Of a stretch of DNA of 44,195 nucleotides, positions 2-44,195 are shown one piece after another; position 1 is the first letter of the stretch, and each line of letters starts with the position of its first letter. The stretch spans positions 1 through 44,195 of the IMG/VR virus record IMGVR_UViG_3300038532_000066. One strand, given 5' to 3'. Source of the DNA: a virus. A program made the position numbers and the translations under genes. The notes below the pieces were generated by a model that saw nothing but the letters and a program-made list of their open reading frames with translations, searched no databases and was not told the DNA's origin.

Positions 2-99
2 GGTTAATTAAATACAACACATGGCTAAATACTCGCGTAGTGAGATTTGGCCGCAGTTGTGTAATTTTACGGCTCAGTTCTTTCTTCAGTTACCCTCGG
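2..99. repeat. Left copy of 98-bp direct terminal repeat
   Basis: Bases 2-99 are identical to 44098-44195. The match stops at base 1, which is T where the right copy has another G of a G run. The window therefore closes into a circle of about 44.1 kb. This most likely reflects assembly overlap of a circular or circularly permuted genome; a short physical terminal repeat is possible but less likely. Confidence 0.9.
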
Positions 100-22579: not shown

Positions 22580-22592
22580 ATAATTAAATATT
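22580..22592. repeat. 13-bp inverted repeat, left end of segment B
   Basis: ATAATTAAATATT is identical to 9521-9533 and the reverse complement of 23365-23377. It lies just upstream of the ATG at 22600, in the same context as at 9976. Confidence 0.7.
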
Positions 22593-22599
22593 TTGAGCG

Positions 22600-23373
22600 A
22601 TGGCAAAAAACAGTAAAATAGAATGGACAGAACACACGGTTAATCTTTGGTGGGGATGTACTAAAGTACACGCTGGATGTGATAACTGCTATGCAGAAAC
22701 ATTATCGCATAGATGGGGTAATGACATTTGGGGTGAAGGAAAAGACCGCAAAAGAATTAAATCAGCTTTCAATGATTTAAATAAATATCAAAAGGAAGCT
22801 GAAGAAAAAGGAATTGATGTAAGAGTATTTGTTGGGTCAATGATGGATATTTTCGAGAAGTCAAAACCAATATCAAACAAGCACTTATTGGCTGAAACTA
22901 CCGAAGATTTGAGAAACGAATTATTCAATAGAATTTCAAATGGTAAATACAACAATCTTACTTTCCTTTTTTTGACTAAAAGACCAAGCAATATCAACAA
23001 ACAAATTCCTTTAGATTGGCAAAATTACCCACCAAAAAACGTTTGGTTCGGATGCTCTCCTGTTGACCAAAAGACATTTGAAAACCTTGTACCAATCCTT
23101 CAACAGGTAAATGGAAATTTGTTTTTGAGTGTAGAACCACAATTGGCAGAAATAAAGAATATTGATTTATCTGGGATTGGCTGGGTAATTCAAGGCGGTG
23201 AAAGCGGACACGGAAAAAGACCGTTTGATTTGCTTTGGGCTGACCGATTGAAATTAGAATGTAGAAGCCAAAATGTTCCTTACTTTTTTAAGCAAATAGA
23301 TAAGGTACAGGAAATACCCGAAGAATACTTGGTAAGAGAATTACCTTTTGAGCGGGTGGGAGAAAATATTTAA
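22600..23373 (+). CDS. DUF5131 (phage Gp37/Gp68-like) protein
   Basis: A 257-aa protein. WWGCTKVHAGCDNCYAE near the N-terminus (C20, C27, C30) and later FLTKRP and GGESGHGKRP motifs are characteristic of the DUF5131 / phage Gp37-Gp68 family. That family has a radical-SAM-like TIM-barrel prediction and three conserved cysteines that may hold an iron-sulfur cluster. It is frequent in phages, with unknown reaction. The gene is more AT-rich than the early operon and is bracketed by a 13-bp inverted repeat. It may be an acquired unit. Confidence 0.8.
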   Translation: MAKNSKIEWTEHTVNLWWGCTKVHAGCDNCYAETLSHRWGNDIWGEGKDRKRIKSAFNDLNKYQKEAEEKGIDVRVFVGSMMDIFEKSKPISNKHLLAETTEDLRNELFNRISNGKYNNLTFLFLTKRPSNINKQIPLDWQNYPPKNVWFGCSPVDQKTFENLVPILQQVNGNLFLSVEPQLAEIKNIDLSGIGWVIQGGESGHGKRPFDLLWADRLKLECRSQNVPYFFKQIDKVQEIPEEYLVRELPFERVGENI

Positions 23374-23377
23374 TTAT
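23365..23377. repeat. 13-bp inverted repeat, right end of segment B
   Basis: AATATTTAATTAT is the reverse complement of 22580-22592 and includes the stop codon of the DUF5131 gene. Two following bases (GG) are also shared with segment A. Confidence 0.7.
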
Positions 23378-23426
23378 GGTTAAGTTGACGCAAAAGTGTC
23401 TACGAAGCGATTCGGTAGTGCTTGTG

Positions 23427-23490
23427 TACAACGGCATCTTGTATGGTGTCGTAGTGAGGCACGAGCTATGCACTATACAAAGTGTTGTGG
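23427..23490 (+). repeat. attC-like site
   Basis: ACAAC (23428-23432) and GTTGTGG (23484-23490) form the outer arms. TTGTAT (23439-23444) pairs with ATACAA (23475-23480), and an inner TCGT pairs with ACGA (23449-23452 / 23461-23464). The spacing, unpaired bases and variable centre are as in attC sites of about 60 bp. Confidence 0.6.
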
Positions 23491-23525
23491 GGAGTGCTGA
23501 TTTTTAACTATAAAACTTAATTGAA

Positions 23526-23777
23526 ATGACAAAAGACGAGAAAATAACACGGATTGTAGAGCTTAGAAAAGGTATTGCTGAACTAAGGCAATTGAAAAAA
23601 GAAGTGAATGGCAGAAATAATTCTAAGCGACTAAAACACTCTAAAATGAATGATTGGGCAAAGGATTGTTTAGATAATTCTGCTTGGGCTGAAAGTAGGA
23701 TAGCTACATTGAACCACTACATTGATAAGGCAAAGACCGAAATAGAACGATTAAAGCTCGAATTAGAATTTGCGTAG
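23526..23777 (+). CDS. Cassette gene, 83-aa coiled-coil protein
   Basis: An 83-aa, highly charged helical protein (MTKDEKITRIVELRKGIAEL...) that looks like two antiparallel coils. It is AT-rich with an A-rich leader. It sits between attC-like sites at 23427-23490 and 23785-23812, so it is the payload of one cassette. The cassette starts GTTGTG and ends CACAAC. No family recognised. Confidence 0.6.
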   Translation: MTKDEKITRIVELRKGIAELRQLKKEVNGRNNSKRLKHSKMNDWAKDCLDNSAWAESRIATLNHYIDKAKTEIERLKLELEFA

Positions 23778-23783
23778 CATTAC

Positions 23784-23812
23784 ACACAACGGGATACGGC
23801 TATGAAGCGTTG
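23784..23812 (+). repeat. Partial attC-like site
   Basis: CAACG (23787-23791) and CGTTG (23808-23812) enclose 16 nt that resemble the left half of the other sites (GGATACGGCTATGAAG). It is shorter than the rest and may be truncated. Confidence 0.4.
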
Positions 23813-23849
23813 CTGATAAAAAGACTATAACTTTTAAATTATAAACGAC

Positions 23850-24068
23850 ATGAATAAAGAGAAAAAAACTTTGAATAATCACGAAAACGGCAATGATTTT
23901 ATAGCCGATGTTAGCGGTAGTTCTTTGCCCTTAAAAATTGAAAGGGTAATAGTAGTTGCTGCTCAACGTTGGGGAAAAGATTATGCTGGCTCAACAGTTG
24001 GAATAATTGGTAGAGATGCAATTGAAATTTGTGAGAAGTATGGTATTGATTGGGAGAATTACCGCTAA
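23850..24068 (+). CDS. Cassette gene, 72-aa unknown
   Basis: A 72-aa protein (MNKEKKTLNNHENGNDFIAD...) with a short helix-rich C-terminus. The stop lies within the left arm of the next attC-like site (GCTAAC, 24064-24069). The preceding leader is A/T-rich with no Shine-Dalgarno. No family recognised. Confidence 0.6.
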   Translation: MNKEKKTLNNHENGNDFIADVSGSSLPLKIERVIVVAAQRWGKDYAGSTVGIIGRDAIEICEKYGIDWENYR

Positions 24069-24196
24069 CGGTTAAGTATATGAAGCGGTGGCGATTAATA
24101 GCTGTAAGATTGCCGACACGCTTAAACTAAATTAAACAGCTAAAAGTGGTTAAAAAGACGTACAACGCCACTGATTTATATACAATGTTGTGCGCA
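24063..24196 (+). repeat. Long attC-like site
   Basis: GCTAAC at 24064-24069 and GTTGTGCGCA at 24187-24196 are the end arms. GTGGCG (24088-24093) pairs with CGCCAC (24166-24171), and the adjoining AGTATATGAA and TTTATATACA segments pair imperfectly. The span of about 130 bp is near the upper end for attC sites. Confidence 0.6.
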
Positions 24197-24210
24197 GTAT
24201 TTATTTTTAT

Positions 24211-24438
24211 ATGAAAAAAATAATTATAAAAGCAGACGCTAATAGCGGTTTTTTAAGAACCGAAGCATTACAGAAAGCCATAGAATTTGAAGAGAGATAT
24301 ATGGCAGAAAAGAAAGAAGGTTGGTATCATGGTGTTCTTTGGGTTAAAGAAAGCAACACGGGTAATAGTGAGTGGCAAATTTATGTTTACCATACTAAAA
24401 CCGCTATTATTGCTTGTGTAGATATGCGTAGTAGGTAA
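24211..24438 (+). CDS. Cassette gene, 75-aa unknown
   Basis: A 75-aa protein from ATG 24211. A GTG at 24190 in frame is rejected as start because it lies inside the attC-like arm. The product has alternating strands and one amphipathic helix (ALQKAIEFEERYMAEKKEG). The cassette begins GTTGTGCGCA and ends TGCGCACAAC (24442-24451), an exact complement over 10 bases. Confidence 0.6.
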   Translation: MKKIIIKADANSGFLRTEALQKAIEFEERYMAEKKEGWYHGVLWVKESNTGNSEWQIYVYHTKTAIIACVDMRSR

Positions 24439-24441
24439 TAT

Positions 24442-24503
24442 TGCGCACAACGTCTCGATAAAAGGACGTGGCTTTTCGCCATGCCTTTTATGGAACGTTA
24501 GCG
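24442..24503 (+). repeat. attC-like site
   Basis: AACGT (24449-24453) pairs with ACGTT (24495-24499), ATAAAAGG (24458-24465) with CCTTTTAT (24484-24491), and GTGGC (24468-24472) with GCCAT (24478-24482). Mismatched bases lie between the boxes, as in attC sites. The following GCGATC/GATCGCAAC (24501-24524) looks like an empty mini-cassette. Confidence 0.65.
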
Positions 24504-24538
24504 ATCCGTTTTAATGATCGCAACGGCCTTTAGCGGGG

Positions 24539-24572: not shown

Positions 24573-24995
24573 CTAGACGCTTGGCGTCATATCCTTATAC
24601 TCTTCTTTAGCATCAAACGATGGACACGCCTTAGAGCTTATATCTCTGTGGCCAATAACCTCCGCGCTCCTATACCTATCTAATAGGTCTTGAATCATAC
24701 ACCTTAACCCTTCCTTTTGCGCGTCTGTACGTGTGTCTTTTGGATTCATTGACGTATCACACCCGCCAGCATAACAAATACCGATAGAATCGCTGTTATG
24801 GCCTTTGGCGTGTGCGCCTGACTTGTGTTCTGGTCTGCACTCGTGGCGTTCACCATTTAAGTCTATAAACCAATGATAACCAATATCGCTCCATCCGTTA
24901 TCGGTTACGTGCCACCTGTACAAATCTTCCTTAGTAACCTCACGGCCTTCGGGTGTTGCTGTGCAATGAACTACGATTTTACTTATCTGTCTCAT
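24573..24995 (-). CDS. Endolysin, N-acetylmuramoyl-L-alanine amidase
   Basis: A 140-aa PGRP/amidase_2 domain with no extra binding module. Likely zinc ligands are H10 (VVHCTA), H116 (GHRDIS) and C124 (ACPSFD), with Y40 in the expected place. It cleaves the bond between muramic acid and the stem peptide at lysis. It has no signal peptide and overlaps the upstream holin-like gene by 4 nt. It is last in the leftward head/lysis operon. Confidence 0.88.
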   Translation of the reverse strand: MRQISKIVVHCTATPEGREVTKEDLYRWHVTDNGWSDIGYHWFIDLNGERHECRPEHKSGAHAKGHNSDSIGICYAGGCDTSMNPKDTRTDAQKEGLRCMIQDLLDRYRSAEVIGHRDISSKACPSFDAKEEYKDMTPSV

Positions 24996-25285
24996 TTATC
25001 ATTTAGTTTACGCTCAAGTTCTTCAATCCTCTTAGCCTGATCCTGCTCAATCTTATCCCTGAGACCATTGACCTCATCTTGTTTCTTTTTAGCGTGATCC
25101 CACAGCTTCCAAGAAACATAAACAAGTAAGACCAACGCACCCGCTGGGCCAATTACCCAACCTATCAGGTCAGAAGGTGGTGAAGAAATAGCAGAGCCAA
25201 CGACCGTACCACCCATCAAAGGGATAGCGACCTGGCCGCTGGTTATTAGAAAGTTCCAAGTTTCATTATACATAGGGGTTGTCAT
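24992..25285 (-). CDS. Holin-like membrane protein
   Basis: A 97-aa protein with a hydrophobic region at residues 12-32 and a clear helix at 40-60 (LIGWVIGPAGALVLLVYVSW). A strongly charged coiled-coil tail (LRDKIEQDQAKRIEELERKL) follows. The place directly upstream of the amidase, in an overlapping pair, fits holin. An inner-membrane spanin is the alternative. Confidence 0.6.
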   Translation of the reverse strand: MTTPMYNETWNFLITSGQVAIPLMGGTVVGSAISSPPSDLIGWVIGPAGALVLLVYVSWKLWDHAKKKQDEVNGLRDKIEQDQAKRIEELERKLNDK

Positions 25286-25662
25286 TTAATTAGCTCAACA
25301 TTGCACGCATACAACCCCCCAAACACAATCGCCCTCCACTTTAAATAAGCGTCAGACCCGTCTGGTCGTTGGTATGCGTTCTCGAAATCATACACAGTCA
25401 TACCGTGTACAAGATCGTCAGACGCTTTCATTGTTTTCCCTTTGTATTGGTCAGATACAAAGTCAATGAACGGCTTACTCCTCATCTCTTTAATGCTACG
25501 CCCTATGTGCTTAAGAAATGCTTTGTTTGCGTAAATAATCCGGTCTGTCTTTACATCTGCAATTACTTGGCCTTGGCTGTCTATTTCATGGATGAGCATA
25601 AGCCCAAAGGTTAGGTCGGGATTAAATAACGCTCGTATCAGAAATAGTATTTTAGTTATCAT
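25282..25662 (-). CDS. Stand-alone PAS-domain protein
   Basis: A 126-aa protein consisting almost entirely of one PAS fold. DVKTDRIIYANKAFLKHIGR (36-55), IKEMRSKPFIDFV (57-69) and FENAYQRPDGSDAYLKWRA (93-111) match the conserved PAS strands and helices. There is no kinase, HTH or cyclase domain attached. It is cotranscribed with the lysis genes (4-nt overlaps both sides). It may sense a ligand or redox state or bind a host PAS protein; this is inference. Confidence 0.75.
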   Translation of the reverse strand: MITKILFLIRALFNPDLTFGLMLIHEIDSQGQVIADVKTDRIIYANKAFLKHIGRSIKEMRSKPFIDFVSDQYKGKTMKASDDLVHGMTVYDFENAYQRPDGSDAYLKWRAIVFGGLYACNVELIK

Positions 25663-36425: not shown

Positions 36426-36457
36426 CAAATTTAAGTATATTGCGCGAAACTAAGCAA
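36426..36457 (-). promoter_or_regulatory. Promoter TTG-21-TAAATTTG
   Basis: On the minus strand a TTG lies 21 nt upstream of TAAATTTG (36426-36433), matching the Bacteroidota consensus. The box ends 4 nt before the ATG at 36421, implying a near-leaderless mRNA. Confidence 0.6.
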
Positions 36458-36460
36458 GAC

Positions 36461-36525
36461 ACAACGTTGAGAATATGCACCGTATGTAGTGCAACGGAAT
36501 ATGGGGTATATTTAGTGTTACCCAC
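36461..36525 (+). repeat. attC-like site at start of second array
   Basis: ACAAC (36461-36465) and GTTACCCAC (36517-36525) are the outer arms. AATATGCAC near 36472-36480 pairs imperfectly with GGGGTATATTTAGTG around 36503-36517. It marks the left edge of the array, next to the glycosyltransferase promoter. Confidence 0.55.
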
Positions 36526-36563
36526 AGTACGGGTTTTTAGTATAAAATTTAAAAAAACAGATA

Positions 36564-37091
36564 ATGAAACATAATATTGATTGGAGTAAAAGTACAAATG
36601 GAGTTATGCTTTGCTCGTTTGAAAAGACAATAGAATTAATGCCCGAAGTAGAACCTATAATAAACGAGTTGTTGGAATCTGGACTACTTGAATTACCTAA
36701 AGAGGAATATGCAGTTGATGTAAAAATACATATGCTTATGCCGAAGCAATTCCCTTGTATTCCAAATTGGCACAGAGATTTTGTACCAAGAGATGAAAAC
36801 TTGAAAAGAGATTTTAGAGGTATAACAGGCGAGAAAATGTATATGTGGTTAAGTGGCCCTCCGCTAACAGAATACAAAGATAAGGAGGGAAACAACTACT
36901 TTAAAGAAGAACAGAAATGGCATACGTTCACTCAAAATGATTTACATAGAGGTATTATGAGTAATGAACATACTTGGAGGTGTTTTATTCGTGTAATACC
37001 AAAGAAGTTCATACACCCAACCACTATAAATGTCAATCAAAGAAGAATACACACACAAGTTTACTTAAACGCTGAAAAATTCAATTGGTAG
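36564..37091 (+). CDS. Cassette gene, putative 2OG-Fe(II) oxygenase-like protein
   Basis: A 175-aa protein. H70-x-D72 (NWHRDF), a distal H128 (DLHRGI) and R139/R143 give the spacing of the metal- and 2-oxoglutarate-binding residues in double-stranded beta-helix dioxygenases. WLSGPPLT and the surrounding strands are consistent with that fold. Substrate unknown. The cassette starts GTTACCCAC (36517) and ends GTGGGTAAC (37107-37115), exactly complementary. The gene is AT-rich and opposite in orientation to flanking phage genes. Confidence 0.55.
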   Translation: MKHNIDWSKSTNGVMLCSFEKTIELMPEVEPIINELLESGLLELPKEEYAVDVKIHMLMPKQFPCIPNWHRDFVPRDENLKRDFRGITGEKMYMWLSGPPLTEYKDKEGNNYFKEEQKWHTFTQNDLHRGIMSNEHTWRCFIRVIPKKFIHPTTINVNQRRIHTQVYLNAEKFNW

Positions 37092-37106
37092 CACTCACGT
37101 AGTATT

Positions 37107-37140
37107 GTGGGTAACGGTTTGTATAAGGTGTCGTAGCGAC
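37107..37140 (+). repeat. Partial attC-like site
   Basis: GTGGGTAAC (37107-37115) complements the start of this cassette. A GGTGTCGTAGCGACC palindrome follows. The right arm (GTT...) is missing, so the site looks truncated. Confidence 0.45.
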
Positions 37141-37186
37141 CTAAACAGCACGAATAACTGAATTAAAAATAACTTAAATAAAAAAA

Positions 37187-37390
37187 ATGGACATAATTAA
37201 AACACTTAAAAGCTATGCACTTTATACTTTGTTGGTAGTATGTGGTTTTGCGGTTTGGTATCTAGGAAATGCATTTGTATTGCTTGAAATGAATTTTGCA
37301 AATTGGGAACAAAACATTAGGTTTTTAGTAGCGATAGAAGGTGCTATTACCTCTATTGGTGCAATAGCTATTTATCAAGTTAATAGATAG
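37187..37390 (+). CDS. Cassette gene, small membrane protein
   Basis: A 67-aa protein with two hydrophobic helices (about 10-32 and 44-63). It is AT-rich, with an A-rich leader. No family recognised. Small membrane proteins are common cassette cargo and sometimes toxins or immunity factors, but there is no evidence for either here. Confidence 0.6.
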   Translation: MDIIKTLKSYALYTLLVVCGFAVWYLGNAFVLLEMNFANWEQNIRFLVAIEGAITSIGAIAIYQVNR

Positions 37391-37446
37391 CAAAACTATT
37401 ACTACCAACAGACAGGTATATGAGTAGAAAACTTAACGGATAAATT

Positions 37447-37689
37447 ATGAAAGAATTATTTGAAGAAGTCGAAAAGAAAGGGCTTAAAGTAGTATTTGGT
37501 TTGGAAGCACAAGGGCATATCCCGACCATAGAAGCAGAATTAAAAAGGTGGAACGATAATGAGTATGGAAATGATATGACTTATTGTAAAGCAGTTTGGG
37601 AGGGTATTGGTAAGAAAATAGGTTGGTGTTCATTCACGGCTGCCCTTTCTTATTTCGAGTACCTTAATGAAAAGGAGAATGGTAGTTAA
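37447..37689 (+). CDS. Cassette gene, 80-aa unknown
   Basis: An 80-aa helical protein (MKELFEEVEKKGLKVVFGLE...) with two Cys and a WCSFTAALSYFEYL segment. It follows the membrane-protein gene by 56 nt without a clear attC-like site between, so both may belong to one cassette. Confidence 0.55.
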   Translation: MKELFEEVEKKGLKVVFGLEAQGHIPTIEAELKRWNDNEYGNDMTYCKAVWEGIGKKIGWCSFTAALSYFEYLNEKENGS

Positions 37690-37700
37690 GTTTTTTGCTT

Positions 37701-37775
37701 ATATACCATGTTGTATGGCGAAGCGTACCGTTTCAATGGCATACAACGTAAAAGCTATGGTGCGTGGCTTTCAAC
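37701..37775 (+). repeat. attC-like half sites enclosing an empty mini-cassette
   Basis: GTTGTATG (37710-37717) and CATACAAC (37740-37747) are exact complements 22 nt apart, as if a cassette had lost its gene. A further AAAGC/GCTTT hairpin follows with AACAACG near 37774. Confidence 0.45.
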
Positions 37776-37806
37776 AACGCATCTAAACAAAAATAAACTT
37801 TGAATT

Positions 37807-38025
37807 ATGAGTACAGTATCAGAAAACAACCAACAGCCATGCACTGTAGCGGATGTTAGCTGCTGGCGATTTATCAAAGGTGAGCAAAACGAAGTGAACC
37901 TAATTGAAATGCCTACGGGCGAAAACTTTGAAATGCTATTTGATGACGGTAGTGTTTGCGAATTTTACGATGACGATATGCCTTTTGCTGAATGTATTGC
38001 TTGGCGACCACTCGCTTGCAGCTAA
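37807..38025 (+). CDS. Cassette gene, 72-aa acidic protein
   Basis: A 72-aa acidic protein (MSTVSENNQQPCTVADVSCW...) with five Cys and a DDGSVCEFYDDDMPF stretch. It ends at the left arm of the long attC-like site (GCTAAC). AACTTTG lies just upstream and may be a promoter remnant. No family recognised. Confidence 0.55.
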   Translation: MSTVSENNQQPCTVADVSCWRFIKGEQNEVNLIEMPTGENFEMLFDDGSVCEFYDDDMPFAECIAWRPLACS

Positions 38026-38152
38026 CGTTTTGCGGTATGAAAAGTTGGGGATTAAAAGAGATAAACTTTCGCACCGCCACAATGATAAATAATAGTATTA
38101 ACCTTCGGGAAACTACACACGCCCCAATTTTTTATACCGTGTGTTATGCCCC
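38021..38152 (+). repeat. Long attC-like site, strong imperfect palindrome
   Basis: The left arm 38021-38050 (GCTAAC..., CGGTATGAAAAGTTGGGG) and right arm 38122-38149 (CCCCAATTTTTTATACCG..., GTTATGC) pair with few mismatches around a 70-nt centre. The length of about 130 bp is like large attC sites. The right arm GTTATGCCCC starts the next cassette. Confidence 0.7.
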
Positions 38153-38170
38153 GTTTTTATTCTTTATTTT

Positions 38171-38683
38171 ATGAATCACGAATTTGCACAAGACAAAATA
38201 AATAAATCAGACGAATTTTATACGCTTGAATATGCTATAAAGCCATTATTGAAATACATCCCAAGTGATAAAACTGTATGGTGTCCATTTGATAAAGAAG
38301 AAAGTAATTTTGTAAAGTTGCTCCGAGAAAATGGGAATACTGTAATTTACGGACACATTGAAGACGGTAAAAACTTTTTTGAATATGAGCCACAAAATTA
38401 CGATTACATTATTAGCAACCCACCATATAGTTTAAGAACACCGATTTTAGATAGGTTATTTTTGATAGGCAAACCATTTGCTTTATTGATAAATGAAAGT
38501 GGATTATTTGATACTAAGAAAAGGTATGAAATGCTAAAAAACAATCCTTTTGAAATAATGGTTTTTGATAAGCGAATTAACTATATAAAAGACGGTGTAA
38601 TTAAAAAAGGTGCTACATTCAAAAGCATTTATTTATGCAGTCAATTATTACCAAGCAAATTCGTTTTCGAGGTGCTTTCTTAA
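38171..38683 (+). CDS. Cassette gene, NPPY-motif methyltransferase-like protein
   Basis: A 170-aa protein from ATG 38171; a further upstream ATG (38141) lies in the attC-like arm. Residues around 78-84 read SNPPYSL, the catalytic motif IV of adenine-N6 methyltransferases. VWCPFDKEESNFVKLL near 38-53 replaces a canonical FxGxG motif I. It is short, perhaps a solitary or reduced enzyme. The cassette starts GTTATGCCCC and ends GGGGCATAAC (38686-38695), complementary over 10 bases. Confidence 0.65.
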   Translation: MNHEFAQDKINKSDEFYTLEYAIKPLLKYIPSDKTVWCPFDKEESNFVKLLRENGNTVIYGHIEDGKNFFEYEPQNYDYIISNPPYSLRTPILDRLFLIGKPFALLINESGLFDTKKRYEMLKNNPFEIMVFDKRINYIKDGVIKKGATFKSIYLCSQLLPSKFVFEVLS

Positions 38684-38685
38684 AT

Positions 38686-38756
38686 GGGGCATAACGGACG
38701 TGGGTATGAATAAGCGATAGCGACCCGTAGGGTTATTTATACTCTGTGTTATATGC
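38686..38756 (+). repeat. attC-like site
   Basis: GCATAAC and GTTATATGC are the outer arms. GGGTATGAATAAGC and GGTTATTTATACTC pair imperfectly around a short centre containing GCGATAGCGACCCGTAG. The length of about 70 bp fits attC. Confidence 0.65.
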
Positions 38757-38782
38757 TGTGGCGGTTAATTAAAAATGAAATT

Positions 38783-39301
38783 ATGACAAGAAATGGAACA
38801 CCAACAAAGCCGAATAAGACAAAGACGGCTACTGCTGCTGACAGAGTGTTTACTAAAAACACAACAGCAAAATGGATTGTAGATTACTTTAAACCACAAG
38901 GCTCAATTTTAGAACCTGCTGCTGGGGAAAATGCCTTTTACGATTTATTTGAAAGCGAGAATAAATACAGATGTGAAATTGACGAAGGACTTGACTTCTT
39001 TGATTGGGATAAGAAAGTAGATTGGATAATTACAAACCCACCTTACAGTATTTATGACCACTTTCTTCAAAAGGCATTTTCTATTGCTGACAATGTTGTG
39101 TTTTTTGTGCCGATAGCCAAAGCCTTTAAAAGCAACAAAGTACAAAAGATGGTGCTTGAATACGGTGGGTTAAAAGAGATAGTGTATATGGGCGGAGGCA
39201 GTAAACACGGATTTGGATTTGGCTTCCCCGTTGGATGTTTACACTACCAAAAAGGCTTTGTGGGTGATTGTAAAATCACCTATGTGATGGACGGATGGTA
39301 G
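38783..39301 (+). CDS. Cassette gene, adenine-N6 methyltransferase-like protein
   Basis: A 172-aa protein from ATG 38783 (the in-frame ATG 38753 is in the attC-like arm). ILEPAAGENAF (about 41-51) is motif I and ITNPPYS (about 82-88) is motif IV of gamma-type adenine methyltransferases. No target-recognition domain or nuclease is attached. It could guard phage DNA against host restriction. The cassette begins GTTATATGC (38748) and ends GCATATAAC (39307-39315), exactly complementary. Confidence 0.72.
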   Translation: MTRNGTPTKPNKTKTATAADRVFTKNTTAKWIVDYFKPQGSILEPAAGENAFYDLFESENKYRCEIDEGLDFFDWDKKVDWIITNPPYSIYDHFLQKAFSIADNVVFFVPIAKAFKSNKVQKMVLEYGGLKEIVYMGGGSKHGFGFGFPVGCLHYQKGFVGDCKITYVMDGW

Positions 39302-39306
39302 CCATT

Positions 39307-39345
39307 GCATATAACGGCTTCGGGTATGGCATCGTATTTTTACGG
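39307..39345 (+). repeat. Partial attC-like site
   Basis: GCATATAAC (39307-39315) followed by GGCTTCGGGTATGGCATCG, similar in layout to the left arms of neighbouring sites. The right arm is not found before the next gene. Confidence 0.4.
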
Positions 39346-39370
39346 AATTGAAACACTAAAATTAAATAAC

Positions 39371-39670
39371 ATGAAAGATAAATTGAAACTAGCACTTTGG
39401 GATAAAGTAAAAAGCACTTATCCAAGCGGAACAAGCAAACACACCAACGCCCTTTTGGAAGAAGACTTTGATAGTTTTCTCGATGAAGTAGTAAAAATAT
39501 GTGCTATACCCATTGTTGGCGGTAGTTACATTGTTTTTGAAGACGGTTCAGACGAAGGGGTTGAAGGCATGATACAACTTAGCAACAAGTTTGAAACACT
39601 TGATGACGCTAAAAAGTATGCTGATGGCTGGAAAGATAAAAATACTTACATAGCTAAGTTGGTGGAGTAA
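39371..39670 (+). CDS. Cassette gene, 99-aa unknown
   Basis: A 99-aa protein from ATG 39371 (a 39305 start would run through the attC-like remnant). Helical N-terminus and a compact beta hairpin (IPIVGGSYIVFEDGSDEGVE). No family recognised. It is the last cassette before the terminator of the leftward operon. Confidence 0.58.
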   Translation: MKDKLKLALWDKVKSTYPSGTSKHTNALLEEDFDSFLDEVVKICAIPIVGGSYIVFEDGSDEGVEGMIQLSNKFETLDDAKKYADGWKDKNTYIAKLVE

Positions 39671-39674
39671 TTAC

Positions 39675-39730
39675 CGCCAACACCTCGCTAAATAGACGTG
39701 CGTAGCATGGAATTTAGCGGCAGTTGTAGC
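39675..39730 (+). repeat. Compact attC-like site
   Basis: GCCAAC (39676-39681) and GTTGTAGC (39723-39730) flank CGCTAAAT (39686-39693), which pairs perfectly with ATTTAGCG (39712-39719). The 56-bp length and the order R''-L''-L'-R' are those of the shortest attC sites. Confidence 0.65.
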
Positions 39731-39734
39731 AAAC

Positions 39735-43755: not shown

Positions 43756-44103
43756 ATGAAACGACCAAAACTAGAATATTACGGAAAGCCAAAAGTGACT
43801 GACAAAGGCGTTGAGACAAATGTGCCTATTTCGGATGTTATGAGATTTGTAAAAGAACTAGAAGCATACTGCGACCGCCTAGAACAAGTTAATTCTGATG
43901 CTTTAGCTGATGTTGTATTAAGTGAGGAACGAACGGAGTTAAACCCCGATAAGGAATTACTGGATTGCATACATAACCTAATGGGGTACTTTGACACACC
44001 AATAGCACGACTAAAAATGCAGGGTGAAGATTGTGAAGCCGTGAGAAAAATTGGAAGAGAGGTATTAAGTAAGCACAACAGAGATTGGCGAGGGGGGGGT
44101 TAA
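43756..44103 (+). CDS. Hypothetical 115-aa protein
   Basis: A 115-aa protein (MKRPKLEYYGKPKVTDKGVE...), acidic, with helices at 27-50 and 66-110. It ends RGGG-stop in a run of eight G at 44092-44099, so the true C-terminus depends on that homopolymer being read correctly. It follows the AP2-like gene. Family unknown. Confidence 0.55.
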   Translation: MKRPKLEYYGKPKVTDKGVETNVPISDVMRFVKELEAYCDRLEQVNSDALADVVLSEERTELNPDKELLDCIHNLMGYFDTPIARLKMQGEDCEAVRKIGREVLSKHNRDWRGGG

Positions 44104-44195
44104 TTAAATACAACACATGGCTAAATACTCGCGTAGTGAGATTTGGCCGCAGTTGTGTAATTTTACGGCTCAGTTCTTTCTTCAGTTACCCTCGG
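44098..44195. repeat. Right copy of 98-bp direct terminal repeat
   Basis: Identical to bases 2-99. See the left copy: the window closes on itself, so the sequence represents a full genome circle. Confidence 0.9.

Follow-up and report, generated by a model that had tools for sequence, protein, structure and literature searches.

Genome and location of the arrays

The DNA analysed here is the whole of IMG/VR virus record IMGVR_UViG_3300038532_000066 (44,195 nucleotides), hereafter called the window. Sequence comparison within this 44,195-nt record revealed a 98-bp direct terminal repeat, which makes the record a complete phage genome; genes encoding a terminase, a portal, a tape-measure protein, DnaB and a helicase were identified. 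The helicase shares 77% amino acid identity with that of Flavobacterium columnare phages and, on this basis, the host is probably a flavobacterium. No cassettes were found in these F. columnare phages with a related helicase, and the rest of their genome could not be aligned to the window. The single close relative, IMGVR 3300038585_000122, shows 100% identity to the window across the 21 kb that were compared. Viral scans with DnaB, the amidase and two of the array-1 cassette proteins returned only this contig, so that no empty-site relative came to light.

Two arrays of genes separated by attC-like sites are present (Table 1). Array 1 is placed, as the original prediction had stated, between the rightward early genes and the convergent, leftward lysis operon, which contains an amidase gene (24573-24995, minus strand). 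A PAS-domain-like protein is also encoded inside this operon (25282-25662, minus strand). The four sites that had been proposed at 23427, 23784, 24063 and 24442 are borne out by R'' cores ending at 23432, 23790, 24069 and 24451, and the R' cores start at 23484, 23910, 24187 and 24497.

Table 1. Coordinates of the features discussed in the text
Feature	Position	Strand	Remarks
Direct terminal repeat, left copy	2-99		98 bp
DUF5131 (phage Gp37/Gp68) gene	22600-23373	+	probably the first cassette in array 1, on weaker evidence
attC-like site W1	23423-23493	+	R'' TGTGTACAAC, stem TTGTATGGTG/CACTATACAA, R' GTTGTGGGGA
Cassette gene, 83 aa	23526-23777	+	no known family; ends 23484/23790 match 8/10, 5/7 non-core
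attC-like site W2	23781-23919	+	R'' TACACACAAC, stem CGGCTATGAA/TTTATAGCCG, R' GTTAGCGGTA
Cassette gene, 72 aa	23850-24068	+	ends 23910/24069 match 10/10
attC-like site W3	24060-24196	+	R'' TACCGCTAAC, stem GTATATGAA/TTTATATAC, R' GTTGTGCGCA
Cassette gene, 75 aa	24211-24438	+	no known family; ends 24187/24451 match 10/10
W4, short terminal hairpin	24442-24506	+	R'' TGCGCACAAC, ATAAAAGG...CCTTTTAT, R' GTTAGCGATC
Array 2	36456-39732	+	sites W5-W12, seven cassettes, anatomy as array 1
Direct terminal repeat, right copy	44098-44195		98 bp

The ends of the DUF5131 cassette (22510/23432) match at 8 of 10 positions, and no attC was found to the left of this gene. It is surrounded by a perfect 15-nt inverted repeat consisting of A+T only (22580-22594 and 23363-23377).

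Site W2 is much longer than it appears, extending from 23784 to the R' box GTTAGCGGTA at 23910, and therefore the ATG of the reading frame 23850-24068 is inside the attC. The site holds the start codon and the first 20 codons of this gene, which is read in frame from W2 across the GTT (...NGNDFIADVSGSS...). The cassette has an exact 10-base complementarity (23910-23919 with 24060-24069) that was absent from the original prediction, while the one that had been described, between 24187-24196 and 24442-24451, is likewise exact over its 10 bases.

The R'' cores of array 2 end at 36465, 37115, 37409, 37747, 38026, 38695, 39315 and 39681, and the array is closed by a short hairpin (39672-39732). It includes two adjacent short DNA-methyltransferase-like cassettes (38174-38683 and 38753-39301), both assigned to phrog_799. 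Also in this array, an attC-like site of 300 bp (37400-37719) holds an entire reading frame of 80 aa (37447-37689) in its loop. As had been anticipated, the cassette genes are not conserved phage core genes. The payload, with methyltransferase-like genes in array 2 and small proteins without an assigned function, is accessory and probably made of host-interaction genes.

Integron-cassette signature

In an integron cassette the box at the start pairs with the one at the end of the same cassette, with GTT and AAC cores, and this was observed in both arrays. Over the 10 cassettes, an average of 6.5 of the 7 positions outside the cores were complementary between a cassette's own ends. The corresponding average was 2.0/7 for the two halves of a site and 1.79/7 for GTT/AAC pairs drawn at random from the window (P(7/7) = 1e-4). 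Nine of the ten cassettes had at least 6/7 non-core complementarity or perfect ends. Complementary own ends together with non-complementary site halves are the signature expected of circular cassettes recombining between G and TT.

We also used a strict chain test, in which an attC has to be followed by a cassette with at least 9/10 complementary ends and by another attC. On the plus strand of the window eight such links were obtained, all of them within the two arrays, with 0 in the remaining ~38 kb and 0 in 379 kb of control DNA, made of regions from genomes of the same Flavobacteriaceae set that is described below. These counts uphold the claim that two such arrays are beyond chance. The arrays have a G+C content of 36%, compared with 43.5% in the rest of the window, and the spacing between cores is 115-119 bp in most of the long sites.

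The description of the sites as having a "textbook" attC layout goes too far. Of the 12 R' boxes in the window, as read by eye, none fits the GTTRRRY of integron cassettes. Minimum-energy folding of whole sites, a weak discriminator for sites of 120 bp, gave mostly unremarkable values, and among the array-1 sites only 24442-24506 clearly beats shuffled sequence (z -4.3). Since attC conservation is confined to the AAC and GTT triplets (PMC3607928), the misfit to GTTRRRY lowers the likeness to class 1 type sites only. No Rfam family matches the array sites.

No match to an integron integrase was found anywhere in the phage record, which consequently does not hold a complete integron with its integrase gene in cis. 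For this reason the arrays are CALINs, with four clustered sites in array 1 and eight in array 2, where two are the threshold (at least two; PMC9024848).

Occurrence of the W2 type of site in other genomes

A 134-bp piece of W2 is present with 87% identity in Cellulophaga phage phi17:1. A 20-base pattern taken from the right end of W2 matched phi17:1, the virus of the window and two other viral contigs, and its 18-base version matched one Bacteroidales MAG contig. This attC type was thereby seen in five unrelated contexts with different neighbouring genes. In all five, identity jumps at the AAC core (upstream mean 0.2-0.4, core 1.0), and it drops just past GTTAGC, a motif that, unlike the left edge, belonged to the search pattern. 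The next gene is in frame through the site in the five contexts (IADVS...). The left breakpoints at the core, together with the own-end complementarity and the attC-shaped spacers, sustain the original prediction of integron-type cassettes.

When the W2 attC was used as a DNA query, it was found in 0 of 300 Flavobacteriaceae genomes and in 1 of 247 genomes of the order to which the Bacteroidales MAG belongs. The pattern TATGNNAAGTTGGGGATTAAAA was detected in 18 viral contigs and in 0 of 395 Bacteroidota genomes, collections which differ in size, and this was not counted as evidence.

Chromosomal arrays and the adjacent XerA-like recombinase

The scan with the W2 pattern also matched Flavobacterium sp. 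9AF, in which roughly twelve cassettes, with 109-126 bp between cores, form an array at the start of a contig and adjoin a gene for a 353-aa tyrosine recombinase (NZ_LR733556, 9788-10849, minus strand). Homologues of this recombinase (E < 1e-40) were found in 62 of 80 Flavobacteriaceae genomes, many of them at contig ends. The 301 kb around 20 of these homologues contained 48 linked cassettes, against 0 in the 379 kb of control DNA. In all 15 array-bearing loci, 9AF included, the array is placed 3' of the recombinase gene, at a distance of 46-2750 bp in 14 of them and of 7.8 kb in one, and all of the 53 chromosomal cassette genes are codirectional with the recombinase. In four of the six loci inspected, a short palindrome and GTTGT come after the stop codon of the recombinase gene, an arrangement resembling an attI. 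Judged from sequence, chromosomes of Flavobacteriaceae thus appear to have the arrangement of an integron platform, that is, a recombinase, an attI-like site and an array in fixed order. One genome (G045) has two platforms (L068 and L071) separated by ~1.6 Mb, and behind each of them come 9-13 cassettes that pass the strict linkage test, with near-uniform sites of 118-119 bp.

These recombinases do not qualify as IntI, which should exceed the curated cut-off of TIGR02249 (265 bits) and have the insert of the I2 region: they scored 161-211 bits, with profile positions ~180-237 unmatched, and all the array-adjacent recombinases that were aligned with IntI1 are without the IntI-specific insert region. 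The best family of those scanned is the XerA-like NF040815, some being just below its cut-off, and the neighbours among solved structures are, in order, XerA, IntI4 and XerD. The chromosomal recombinases have an extra N-terminal domain of ~80-110 aa.

In two viral contigs with an array in common, the array is immediately followed by a gene for a 266-aa relative of the recombinase, which means that the viral association of recombinase and array was seen for a single array. The presence of this recombinase suggests that the enzyme may in some cases be encoded along with the phage array. At 12.0-15.3 kb of a viral contig (IMGVR 3300027806_000037) an array ends ~50 bp before a 266-aa recombinase of this kind and is a candidate phage-borne integron. 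A search of 148 Bacteroidota with the viral-type recombinase gave four matches; three of the loci have no convincing arrays, and the fourth has an array of the chromosomal type with classical polarity.

Polarity of the sites and the probable mobile unit

Attachment sites of class 1 integrons, such as that of aadA1, read AAC-A...C-GTT. Read in the sense of the gene, the chromosomal sites also read AAC-A...C-GTT and have the shorter spacer at the R'' side, whereas the phage sites read AAC-G...T-GTT and have the longer spacer at that side. It follows that the classical sense is that of the chromosomal arrays and that the genes of the phage arrays are inverted. We compared 72 viral sites, nearly all from phage contigs, with 72 chromosomal sites of Flavobacteriaceae; the viral set takes in two sites of the Bacteroidales MAG contig, and some viral contigs may be host DNA. 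After duplicates were removed, 69 viral sites were positive and 2 negative, against 3 and 69 of the chromosomal ones (Fisher p = 2e-34), polarity being read from spacer asymmetry and flanking bases and gene orientation from the longest reading frame, both supplied by an attC detector that was written and tuned in this analysis. The integron-cassette arrangement of a sense gene with the attC at its 3' end is accordingly found in the chromosomal arrays and not in those of the phages. The isolate phage P12002L has about eight attC-like sites in two arrays (31.1-33.0 and 38.0-39.9 kb), with the viral polarity.

The extent of similarity between sites also differs. Similarity between viral sites ends at AAC (median 0 nt beyond) and continues past GTT into the downstream gene. 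Between loci, it runs more than 12 nt beyond the core to the right in 11 of 33 viral comparisons and to the left in 1 of 33, and the chromosomal sites are the mirror of this, with 92 of 164 to the left and 21 of 164 to the right, although the pairwise comparisons are not mutually independent. The only nearby ATG is inside the attC in 11 of 47 viral cassettes and in 0 of 41 chromosomal ones. Moreover, phi17:1 contains a near-identical duplication of 180 nt that begins at the core and spans the attC and the start of the downstream gene. From the breakpoint asymmetry, the start codons in the attC and this duplication, the mobile unit in phages is most likely formed by the attC and the gene downstream of it. 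If the attC travels with its downstream gene, breakpoints are expected at AA|C after the stop codon, and the point of recombination in phages is probably AA|C, i.e. G|TT on the other strand. The original prediction had expected breakpoints just ahead of the TT of the GTT core, the mirror image of this, and for this phage it finds no support, as viral similarity stops at AAC and runs past GTT. The idea of start-less cassettes using the leader of the previous cassette was also dropped, for the polarity puts leader and gene in one unit.

Proposed mobilisation of the cassettes and alternative explanations

The best overall explanation, to which we assign a probability of roughly 0.7, is that the arrays consist of integrase-less cassettes of the integron type, inverted in the phage and mobilised by a XerA-like recombinase. 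Cassettes would enter or be swapped at the AA|C that follows the stop codon of the gene before (G|TT on the strand that recombines), with the phage DNA present in the cell, and would be gained from a circulating pool during infection. The enzyme may be a XerA-like tyrosine recombinase encoded by the host or by a co-infecting phage, of the same sort as those next to the chromosomal arrays and next to the array common to two viral contigs, and the attC would supply the start codon and the N-terminal codons of some phage cassette genes. The hairpins at 24442-24506 and 39672-39732 may serve as landing sites, because the first cassette would join there in attC orientation and because they resemble the palindromes beside the chromosomal recombinases; W4, next to the lysis operon, is hence a candidate attI-like site. 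We lean, with little more than even confidence, towards the broader proposal that a little-noticed class of integrons in Bacteroidota is driven by XerA-like recombinases lacking the I2 helix, accompanied by a separate, inverted pool in phages in which the attC acts as a 5' leader.

The enzyme could be another one. Of six phage attCs assayed by Qi et al. (PMC9892861), IntI1 integrates five, including one of Polaribacter phage P12002L, so that a XerA-like enzyme is not required, and the cassettes might be ordinary ones moved by the classical IntI of a host or mobile integron, with the XerA-like recombinase as a bystander. We consider this unlikely, given that arrays are 3' of the XerA-like gene in every array-bearing locus with all genes codirectional, that control regions have none, and that Bacteroidetes are reported to have integrons with a recognised IntI only very rarely (PMC9024848). 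Somewhat less credible still is a single capture of part of a host array, by illegitimate or homologous recombination, that left passive debris which is not shuffled in phages. The opposite polarity means that the phage arrays are not a direct copy of the sampled chromosomal ones, one attC type occurs in several phages with different genes, and the well-preserved ends of nine of the ten cassettes speak against long decay, although the phage has no integrase and off-target homologous or illegitimate recombination is what Qi et al. propose for phage CALINs (PMC9892861).

The inversion itself may be questioned, as polarity was derived from spacer asymmetry and flanking bases and not from biochemistry, and as the common W2 attC is followed by different gene bodies right after GTT. 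Both points would suit a viral attC lineage in which the asymmetry evolved the other way, with genes that are not inverted and recombination at the GTT before the gene. This we judge to be as improbable as passive capture, because the breakpoint asymmetry, the start codons in the attC and the phi17:1 duplication each tie the attC to the downstream gene. The 10-bp inverted repeat at both sides of each gene could also recall small transposon-like elements with their own terminal inverted repeats, unrelated to integrons. We rejected this reading, which is very nearly without credibility: the repeat sequence is different in every cassette, with GTT/AAC alone in common, attC-like stems are found between neighbours, and neither a transposase nor target duplications were seen.

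Comparison with known systems and implications

CALINs have already been reported in phages (Qi et al. 2023, PMC9892861), and an integrase-less row of cassettes in a phage is therefore not new in itself. Those CALINs are alike in having integrase-less, attC-separated small genes, including methyltransferases, in virulent phages. P12002L is alike in attC polarity and in its two arrays with about eight sites; two of its sites are named for the assay in that study, in the parts of which that were read the inverted unit, start codons in the attC and Cellulophaga phages are unmentioned.

The sedentary chromosomal integrons of Treponema (PMC3607928) resemble the chromosomal arrays in having integrase and cassettes codirectional, the array 3' and attCs of 63-132 bp. 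They differ in having a recognised IntI, whereas the Flavobacteriaceae recombinases that were aligned are without the IntI insert, and in the phage arrays the genes are inverted and an integrase is missing. Another likeness is a mobile gene of Riemerella anatipestifer, with 27 bp before it and a 140-bp attC-like part after it, which integrates free of homology (PMC13148043); the 140 bp fit the ~138-bp sites in Flavobacteriaceae. That report names no recombinase and reports no integron, and the tie to the XerA-like gene is inferred by us.

Known Xer recombinases act on dif-like double-stranded sites. The recombinases beside the arrays find their best matches, by family and by structure, among the simple tyrosine recombinases of the XerA/XerD type (NF040815; PDB 4a8e, 5hxy), but unlike the known Xer the gene described here is tied to cassette arrays and its chromosomal forms have the additional N-terminal domain.

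In the open-access literature searched, which lacks most subscription papers, so that absence from it is weak evidence of novelty, no account was found of inverted phage cassettes or of start codons supplied by an attC. Nor did it yield one of arrays in Flavobacteriaceae that depend on a recombinase devoid of the IntI insert. The I2 helix is considered necessary for integron integrases to handle the folded single-stranded attC, and no intermediates of this evolutionary step are known (PMC7790495), while integron-like recombinases are described as bearing an insertion, essential to their function though not fully conserved (PMC8138268). A recombinase without the I2 helix beside attC arrays in many Flavobacteriaceae makes the question of this requirement testable. 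The XerA-like platform may also explain how a Flavobacteriales species takes up genes without homology (PMC13148043) and the near-absence of integrons from IntegronFinder surveys of Bacteroidetes (PMC9024848).

For phages, the results suggest a modular exchange of accessory genes with an orientation rule of its own, in isolates that can be worked with (phi17:1 and P12002L). By far the densest viral array seen belongs to a 93-kb viral contig (IMGVR 3300025839_000011, 78445-93027), with 24 attC-like sites in 14.6 kb.
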